Assembly (NCBI GenBank): GCA_963205275.1
Contig: CAUJIH010000100.1
Span: 1 to 58,701 of the forward strand
DNA: 58,701 nt
Reading direction: 5' to 3'
Source of the DNA: Verrucomicrobiota bacterium
GTDB taxonomy: Bacteria > Verrucomicrobiota > Verrucomicrobiia > Verrucomicrobiales > DEV007
Both the position numbers and the translations under genes were made by a program. The notes under the pieces were generated by a model, which was given only the letters and a program-made list of their open reading frames with translations, was not told where the DNA came from and made no database searches. Shown here piece by piece: positions 1-24,268 of this stretch (the first letter of the stretch is position 1; each line of letters begins with the position of its first letter).

Positions 1-33
1 CGTCTTTTCGTTCTTTTGGGTAGTGTTTCATGA

Positions 34-97
34 TAAATAGGCACCGCCCGCTGCTCTGGTCGGCAAGCCTCCCGACGCAGCGGGCGGTGCCTATTTA
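34..97. repeat. Long perfect palindrome (REP-like hairpin)
   Basis: Two perfectly complementary 20-base arms lie at 35-54 and 77-96, extended by one more pair (34/97), around a 22-base loop. The loop holds a further short TCGG/CCGA complementarity (60-63 and 72-75). The right arm contains the stop codon (91-93) of the minus-strand DUF6807 remnant. It is too long to be chance and has no T-tract, so it looks like an intergenic interspersed repeat rather than a rho-independent terminator. No second copy of this exact sequence was seen in the window. Confidence 0.8.
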
Positions 98-495
98 ATC
101 CAGTAAGCGGCAGGTGGACAACTACGCTGACAGCTAATGCCATTCATTCCCTTGTGTAAGATGCGCCCTCGTTTCTTTTCCGAATTCGGGGTCGGGTGGA
201 AGTCGTATCCGTTCACGTCACCCAGGGAAACCCATATTCCGCGTCCCCGTGAGGGCGCTTTCTCTGCTGTAGCGGTGATGGCTGCTCCGCCCGGACCGAT
301 GAGCGGAGCCAAATGAGGCAGACCGTCCCTGAATCCTGAATGATAGGAAGAGACGCGCCGTTTTCCGTGGAAGATCTCGACCGGGTCGGTTCCTTGGATG
401 GACCATCCCTCGCCGCCGATGATCTGAGCCGTTGCCATCGTAGGTGCCAGAGTGGAGAGCAGGAAAAGAAATTGACGGCGTGAAGGGTGATCCAT
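91..495 (-). pseudogene. Truncated DUF6807 (PmoA-like) protein with Tat signal
   Basis: The start at 495 gives 134 residues opening with a twin-arginine signal (SRRQF, then a hydrophobic stretch ending near ATAQ). Around residues 88-97 the segment GRGIWVSLGDVNGYDF resembles the DUF6807 core, where DHPHHRGLW is followed by GDVNG; here the HH part is degenerate. DUF6807 proteins are usually around 300 residues, so more than half is missing, and the C-terminal 20 residues read like non-coding sequence ending inside a palindromic repeat. It is divergent from the sugar isomerase gene at 565, a common pairing of secreted sugar-related genes. The family call is from memory of the motif. It could still be expressed as a short protein, but a decayed gene is more likely. 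Confidence 0.55.
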
Positions 496-22357: not shown

Positions 22358-24268
22358 ATGAACGACGACACAACCTCCACTGCTTCTTCTTCCACCTCGG
22401 TGAGGGTGGCGCTGATCCTCGGTGTGCTCTGGGCTGCCGCTATCGGAGCGATCTGGTATGCGGATCAGGAAAAAGTTCTCAATCAGACTTTTTTACATTT
22501 CTTCGCTCGATTTCACGTTTTGATTGTCCATGTTCCGATCGGACTCATCTCGGTCGCTTTCGTGATGGATGTCTTGAGCTACTTCACGGCTTTCGGATAT
22601 CTGAAGAGATCGATTCCGTTCATCCTCTGGGTCAGTTTTATCGGGGCGATCGGATCGACAGTAGCGGGTTGCCTGCTCATGTTCATGGAGGATTTCTCCG
22701 GACGGGCGCTGGATCTTCACCTTTACACGAGTCTGGCGATCGTGGTGCTGACTCTTTTCGCTCTGATCCAGTCTTTGCGAAATCGCCGTATCCTCGCTGG
22801 CCTGGGCACTGCAGCGGCTCTTCTCATGACGGCCGCCAGCGGGCACTTCGGTGGCGCGATGGTTCACCGCGATGATTACCTTACTCAATACGCTCCCGAT
22901 CAGTTAAAGCCGATTTTGCATTTTGGACTAGTGTCTTCAAAGGCTCCTGCTCAGTCGGAATCGACGGAAACGGAGATGGAGAAAGACCTTGCGAAACCCA
23001 TAGGGGATCGGCTCGTATATCAGGATTTCGTCGCTCCTATCATGGACAGAAGCTGTGACGAGTGTCATAACGAAAACAAGACTAAAGGCAAGCTCCGGAC
23101 GGATACTTACGAAATGCTAATCGCTGGAGCCAAAGGATCGGAGTATCCGAATATCGTACCTGGCGATGCAGCGGAATCGGAACTGATTGTGCGAGTGGAA
23201 CTGCCGGAGGATGACGACGAGTTCATGCCGGAAGACGCTGATCCTCTCCCGAAAGCAGAAATTGAGTTATTGAAGCTCTGGATCAATGCGGGAGCGAAGG
23301 AGGATATGACGATTGCTCAACTGGGAGACGATCCGAAGATCATTCAGCTCGCCGAGGAGGTTTGGGCACTGTATTCTGGTGGAAAGGCTGCGGGAGCAGC
23401 CCCGCTGACCCATCCCGTGACGCAAGACTCTGCTTCTGCTTGGGAGGCACTGCCCGACGAAGAAAAGGAGTCGCGCTTGAAAGCTGTCCGTGCGGAGGCT
23501 GACAAGCTGAACTTCACCATTTCCACTGTCTCAGATAAGGATTCGCGCCTTCAGATAGACGTCGTCAATGCCGCGAAGGATTTCGGAGACGAGCAAGTAA
23601 AGCTGCTCGAGCCAGTCGCAGAGCAAATTGTATCGCTGAATCTGGCTCGGAGTCAGGTGACGGACCACGGGTTAAAATCCGTCGCGATGATGACGAATCT
23701 GGAAACGCTGCATCTCGAAGCCACTGGTATTACGGATGCCGGAGTTTCAGAACTCGCTCCGCTGAAAAAGTTAACTTACCTGAATCTGTATGAAACCAAA
23801 GTGGGGAATGGGATCTTCGACACCTTGGCTGAGCTTCCAGCCCTTCGTAACGTTTACGTTTGGAAAACTGAAGTCAATCCAGAGCGAGCCAAGGCATATG
23901 AGCAGAGTGTGAATCTGAAGATTGACACGGGTGAAGAGTTGATGCCGCCACCTCCGGCCCCTCCTTCACAGAGCATTCAGGGGGGAAATGCTAAAGGTGC
24001 AGAGGCTCCCAAGCCAGTTGCCCCTGCAAAAACGGAAACTCCGAAGCCAGCGAAAAAGCTTGCTGAACCTGTAAAGGCTGAGGCTCCGAAGCCAGTCGAG
24101 AAGCCCGCTTCACCGGCCAAAGTAGAGGCTCCGAAGCCAGCGGAGAAGCCCGCTGCATCGGAAAAGGCGGATTTACCCAAGCCTGTGGAGAAGGCGAATG
24201 AGGCCGCCAAGCCGGAGGCTCCCAAGCCTCAGAAACCAGCTCCTGTGATTGAGAAAAAGGCAGCCTAA
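22358..24268 (+). CDS. DUF2231-like membrane / planctomycete-type cytochrome c / LRR fusion
   Basis: Start 22358 gives 636 residues; a farther start at 22253 would add 35 residues with no signal. An N-terminal membrane domain of about five segments (16-34, 51-75, 84-107, 119-139, 145-163) resembles DUF2231. A haem c site C233-D-E-C236-H237 opens a PSCyt1-type domain (VPGDAAESELIVRV, ELLKLWINAGA). Leucine-rich repeats follow (about 425-505: LNLARSQVTDHGLKSVAMM, LHLEATGITDAGVSELAPL). The tail is rich in Lys-Pro-Ala-Glu. It is probably an electron-transfer or sensing protein whose haem faces the periplasm. Downstream ResB/CcsA may supply its haem attachment. Partner molecules are unknown. Confidence 0.8.
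   Translation: MNDDTTSTASSSTSVRVALILGVLWAAAIGAIWYADQEKVLNQTFLHFFARFHVLIVHVPIGLISVAFVMDVLSYFTAFGYLKRSIPFILWVSFIGAIGSTVAGCLLMFMEDFSGRALDLHLYTSLAIVVLTLFALIQSLRNRRILAGLGTAAALLMTAASGHFGGAMVHRDDYLTQYAPDQLKPILHFGLVSSKAPAQSESTETEMEKDLAKPIGDRLVYQDFVAPIMDRSCDECHNENKTKGKLRTDTYEMLIAGAKGSEYPNIVPGDAAESELIVRVELPEDDDEFMPEDADPLPKAEIELLKLWINAGAKEDMTIAQLGDDPKIIQLAEEVWALYSGGKAAGAAPLTHPVTQDSASAWEALPDEEKESRLKAVRAEADKLNFTISTVSDKDSRLQIDVVNAAKDFGDEQVKLLEPVAEQIVSLNLARSQVTDHGLKSVAMMTNLETLHLEATGITDAGVSELAPLKKLTYLNLYETKVGNGIFDTLAELPALRNVYVWKTEVNPERAKAYEQSVNLKIDTGEELMPPPPAPPSQSIQGGNAKGAEAPKPVAPAKTETPKPAKKLAEPVKAEAPKPVEKPASPAKVEAPKPAEKPAASEKADLPKPVEKANEAAKPEAPKPQKPAPVIEKKAA
24077..24166 (+). repeat. 45-bp tandem repeat coding for the Lys-Pro-Ala-Glu tail
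   Basis: Two near-identical 45-base units (24077-24121 and 24122-24166) share GAGGCTCCGAAGCCAG and GAGAAGCCCGCT blocks. They encode a 15-residue EAPKPVEKP-type motif, and looser copies flank them from about 23995 to 24240. Copy number could vary between strains. Confidence 0.7.

Follow-up and report, generated by a model that had tools for sequence, protein, structure and literature searches.

An insertion sequence (IS) of the IS3 type, several copies of which are present in the genome, has almost certainly transposed into a DUF6807 gene at the left edge of the window, duplicating the target ATGG and splitting the gene in two. The window is the whole stretch of DNA that was analysed, 58,701 bases of contig C100 in an assembly (G000) of 109 contigs and 4.08 Mb. 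The palindrome that drew attention to this edge is a real feature, and the cause of the broken gene is an ordinary one, a transposon insertion. The result settles what broke the DUF6807 gene and most probably accounts for the end of the contig at this point as well. It also delimits an IS lineage with near-identical copies that has split at least two genes of this genome. The features concerned are the following:

1-31, minus strand: start of the transposase gene orfA (ATG at 31-29), running off the window; a full orfA of 162 aa is found on C37 (L014:3925-4413)
1-139, minus strand: left 139 bases of the IS, with identical or near-identical left ends on C46, C37 (two), C8 and C38; the element extends past the window edge
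34-97, minus strand: palindrome, with 21-bp arms and an inner 5-bp stem, containing the chance TAG stop (91-93) of the cut DUF6807 frame
116-139, minus strand: left terminal inverted repeat, CATTAGCTGTCAGCGTAGTTG..., the right end reading inward CGGTAGCTGTCAAGCGAGTTG...; inner limit approximate
140-143, minus strand: target-site duplication ATGG, with its second copy immediately past the IS right end on C16
140-495, minus strand: 5' part of the DUF6807 gene, the left flank of the insertion (PF14100 positions 2-89 of 270); the 3' part is on C16

The palindrome at the window edge

The palindrome is a perfect inverted repeat, its arms at 34-54 and 77-97 forming 21 pairs with 100% complementarity around a gap of 22 bases. 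It is the sole inverted repeat in the 58,701 bases with arms of at least 11 bases and a gap of 3-40. The initial annotation had described a 21-pair perfect palindrome containing the stop codon of a shortened DUF6807 frame, and this is what we find: the frame runs on the minus strand from an ATG at 495 to a TAG at 91-93, inside the right arm. The length of 62 bases given there is corrected to 64. Folded as RNA together with the adjoining start of orfA, the palindrome reaches −51.2 kcal/mol (z = −9.3 against 200 shuffles); a search of Rfam returned only matches far below the gathering scores. In the coordinates of the IS, the palindrome occupies 43-106 and orfA starts at 109. Only 2 bases separate the end of the 3' arm from the start codon, and the bases ahead of the ATG are nearly all paired by computation.

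A search of the whole genome, which the initial annotation had recommended, proved the palindrome not to be unique. With a few flanking bases it is present in full at five places (C100, C46, the start of C37, C8 and C37:3855) and cut by the contig end at a sixth, the end of C38; in the copy at C37:3855, one pair is broken and another is a wobble pair. The other matches were the same places on the opposite strand and one 17-base match with an E value of 1.66. Every copy in this genome occupies the same fixed place within an IS left end.

The interrupted DUF6807 gene

The 134-aa stump in the window matches profile positions 2-89 of 270 in PF14100 with 33.1 bits (cut-off 27). This is about the first third of the domain, less than the intact N-terminal half that had been claimed for it. 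PF14100 is found at six places in the genome, namely four complete or nearly complete copies, the stump, and a match on C16 that covers profile positions 76-257. On the minus strand of C16, an orfB-like end, CTTGACAGCTACCG and the remainder of a DUF6807 gene follow one another in this order. When the flanks on C100 and C16 are joined with one ATGG, an open frame of 318 aa results, which matches PF14100 over positions 2-257 with 112.4 bits, as against 33.1 for the stump alone. The continuity of duplication, frame and profile across the two contigs argues that transposition split the gene. It is from these three that we infer the link between C100 and C16, since the interior of the IS, including most of orfB, is unassembled and no copy is read end to end. 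The stop codon of the stump is then a by-product, as the cut 5' frame stays open across the terminal repeat and ends only at a TAG that happens to be part of the palindrome of the IS.

The initial annotation had supposed that insertion of a repeat, or decay up to one, shortened the gene. A repeat was indeed inserted; the inserted unit, however, is not the palindrome, which is internal to an IS whose true end lies at 139, and the gene was split rather than shortened, its 3' two thirds surviving on C16. Decay up to a repeat is rejected, given that the flanks share ATGG and rejoin into the open PF14100 frame. One could still suppose that the gene decayed by itself and that the match between the contigs is artefactual, as C100 and C16 are not physically joined in an assembly of 109 contigs. 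This is scarcely credible: duplication, open frame and profile continuity coincide, and five other pairs of left and right ends behave likewise. The suggestion that the rest of the gene may lie left of the window was correct in that the rest exists, but no uninterrupted DUF6807 frame continues there; the orfA of the IS stands in that place, and the 3' part lies on C16 behind the IS right end.

The window, and with it the contig, most likely starts here because the assembly breaks at copies of the IS, which is a repeat. There is a caution in this: a gene that looks truncated at the edge of a contig may be no more than split by an IS copy missing from the assembly. A literature search listed one paper that names DUF6807.

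Copies of the element and their target duplications

All six assembled left ends begin with CATTAGCTGTCAGCG, and the sequences diverge outside it. A search with the right end gave nine strong places, seven of them (C16, C89, C86, C33, C30, C78 and C18) at 99-100%; the lesser matches were a shorter one on C12 at 84% and two weak ones. The two diverged right ends among the nine, C104:929-1063 (L085) at 96% and C46:34949-35087 (L086) at 94%, suggest that the IS lineage has been in the genome for some time. The flanks of the six left ends were compared with those of eight right ends, leaving out C104 and C12. Every left end could be paired with a right end (..CTTGACAGCTACCG) by a target duplication of 3-4 bp:

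C100 and C16: ATGG, 4 bp
C46 and C86: GAGG, 4 bp
C37 start and C18: AATC, 4 bp
C8 and C89: ACCT, 4 bp
C37 end and C78: TTAC, 4 bp
C38 and C30: TAG, 3 bp

The right ends on C33 and at the far end of C46 have no left partner. One of the pairs reveals a second split gene. The copy at C8:1-183/C89 (L015, L079) interrupts a gene for a large Ser/Thr protein kinase at its start, within the glycine-rich loop, and joining C8 with C89 restores the kinase frame through that loop. As the DUF6807 and kinase frames are both restored on joining, two independent lines of coding evidence support splitting by transposition.

The first 15 bases of the IS, CATTAGCTGTCAGCG, are also met mid-contig with no IS behind them, at C6:84496-84508, C59:20009-20021 and C62:1436-1448, all on the minus strand (L059, L065 and L066); at the C6 site, 28 end bases are matched at 93%. 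These three sites look like relics of left ends; within the 3-kb loci, none has a convincing partner at the right end. In a scan that allowed up to one mismatch, CATTAGCTGTCAGCG gave 11 matches against 8 for a reversed-pattern control, so that only the exact matches are telling.

Assignment to the IS3 type

Several traits point to IS3. The orfA product carries a helix-turn-helix domain (PF01527, HTH_Tnp_1) with 39.6 bits (cut-off 24.1). A slip site A AAA AAG lies in frame at L014 4374-4380, a predicted −1 frameshift signal that would join orfA to orfB; beyond it, an orfB-like frame stays open as far as the contig end. The terminal inverted repeats are imperfect, and the target duplications of 3-4 bp fall in the range of 3-5 bp expected for the family. 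Slip site, repeats and duplications are all shared with IS3-family insertion sequences. The profile evidence for orfB and its DDE integrase core (rve) is limited by the assembly: only a C-terminal fragment, of the copy on C104, is assembled, scoring 21.0 bits with PF13683 (cut-off 26.5), and orfA alone scores 45.7 bits with NCBIfam NF033516 (cut-off 160), a model most of whose region is missing from the assembly. The ends are different. All paired copies have CATTAG at the left and TACCG at the right, in place of the TG...CA dinucleotides that are usual in the IS3 family, though common rather than defining, and that are reportedly present at the termini of ISSau2. Since its termini lack TG...CA, we would call the element, judged by sequence, IS3-type and make no claim to full membership of the IS3 family.

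Relatives and conservation of the hairpin

Protein searches with orfA matched only this genome, both among 56 related genomes and among 387 of the phylum; among 386 genomes of the order, they matched this genome and one other, which by contig number and coordinates is the metagenome-assembled genome (MAG) of L098. A scan of a collection of genome contigs with orfA gave two relatives, L098 in the Akkermansiaceae MAG DAH.28, with 83% identity over residues 1-86, and L099 with 44%. No relative was found in a scan of viral contigs with the orfA protein. More distant relatives on plasmids are annotated as "IS3 family transposase" (e.g., NC_021077.1 and NZ_CP132340.1); they have a helix-turn-helix orfA with up to 45% identity over about 75% of orfA and, upstream of it, a GTCAG..TAG.TGTC-like core that is also seen in the terminal repeats of our IS.

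L098 has a terminal repeat and a palindrome like those described here. The palindrome core is identical at 50 of 52 bases, as against 210 of 258 for orfA (Fisher p 0.006, for a single sequence pair); the end region is identical at 39 of 48 bases and the third codon positions at 64%. The pair just outside the core, at its edge, has changed from A-T to T-A by a double change, and the 22-base gap has two differences, of which one disrupts a pair in the inner stem. Eight bases lie between core and start codon in both, three of them identical, and the 3' arm ends 6 bases from the start codon in L098. There the start codon is computed to be partly paired and the last bases ahead of it partly open. 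The orfA frame of L098 itself breaks off after some 90 codons.

Of eight plasmid relatives, seven entered a comparison of the fold, and none of these has such a hairpin; the folding there is not markedly unusual against shuffles (z from −2.7 to +1.4). L095 and L099 were left out of the fold comparison because the start is unclear or too near the contig end. With no comparable fold in the seven distant relatives, the hairpin is no general need of such elements. These relatives also differ from our IS in its ends, CATTAG..TACCG, and in that its orfB is known from fragments only. Whether a C-run at the IS tip of these relatives might pair with a G-run close to the start codon, and so serve a similar end, was also considered. 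The idea was dropped, as the C-run is wholly paired in one of the seven (L097), partly in five and not at all in one (L092), in folds that are not markedly unusual. The hairpin is carried by two lineages only, this genome and L098. In the collections searched, the IS has no close relative other than L098, and it is unusual in one trait only, the strong and conserved hairpin of its leader. Two bacterial families have kept this hairpin in front of the transposase gene, which makes it a clean case.

Could the palindrome have spread by itself, as a REP- or MITE-like repeat that inserted independently into the DUF6807 gene or into the IS? In favour of this, the repeat unit is near-perfect, and a loosely similar G+C-rich hairpin with the same GGGAGGCTTGCC loop and no IS seen beside it occurs at C97:6915-6960 of G108 (L100), in another family of the phylum. 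This is one other genome of 387, in a scan that scored two candidates per genome and is therefore a weak negative. The motif CGGGAGGCTTGCCG is found in 30 of the 387 genomes, ours included, and by eye, among the matches listed, only G108 has a comparable hairpin. Against it, the copies of this genome are confined to IS left ends and not dispersed on their own, and the palindrome has the same position in the diverged L098. There is also no blastn match to the palindrome in plasmids or phages and no exact match to its core in viral contigs. Insertion of a stand-alone palindrome into DUF6807 is already contradicted, and we hold the explanation as a whole to be very improbable.

A possible role of the hairpin

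We think the chances are even that the palindrome acts as a conserved hairpin in the 5' leader of the transposase mRNA, a reading that draws on analogy with other elements. In IS200, the tnpA transcript reportedly carries an inverted repeat in its 5' leader, and the stem-loop formed by it is described as sequestering the ribosome-binding site (PMC12594629). The tnp 5'-UTR of ISPpu9 likewise has a folded leader; mutations that weaken the fold reportedly raised translation, and an antisense RNA is proposed to open the leader (PMC8450116). Our IS resembles IS200 in the inverted repeat of its transposase leader, and ISPpu9 in having a folded leader ahead of the transposase gene, the ISPpu9 leader being a long one. 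The transposase of IS200 is of a type unrelated to that of our IS.

By the same analogy with IS200 and ISPpu9, the likeliest role for the hairpin would be to restrain translation of the transposase, a proposal we consider evenly balanced. The 3' arm, just before the start codon of orfA, would occupy the region of ribosome entry. Transcripts reading in from outside, and perhaps also the element's own, would then be translated poorly, and transposition would stay rare. The masking is argued from position, as no Shine-Dalgarno sequence could be named. A literature search on impinging or read-through transcription of IS elements found nothing.

The stem might instead work at the IS edge as an insulator or by terminating transcription. 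It is strong and G+C-rich, and TATTTA follows the core in our copy; L098 has AACGCC there, with no T run, and a scan for promoters and terminators recognised none at the window end or in L098. We consider this unlikely. Two promoter candidates were set aside: one at the junction, built on a TTGACA of the right end, for which no −10 at a fitting distance could be seen by eye, and a TTGTCC-17-TTAAAT pair, kept in L098 with a diverged spacer, which the promoter scan did not accept.

That the arms and most of the gap are kept in sequence, more than a plain fold requires, would also fit a DNA-binding site for the transposase OrfA or a host regulator, with the RNA fold incidental. Arms so long and perfect are unusual for an operator, and we regard such a site as a doubtful alternative. 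The same conservation of arms and gap beyond the needs of a plain stem underlies a more speculative thought, to which we give a small chance: the palindrome may be a sequence-specific regulatory RNA element, recognised by a protein or an antisense RNA, that would control IS copy number in a lineage of such elements, undescribed until now, from Verrucomicrobiota-type bacteria.

Elsewhere in the window, positions 24011-24235 hold tandem repeats with a period of 45 bases, by sequence probably a coding stretch rich in lysine, proline and alanine.
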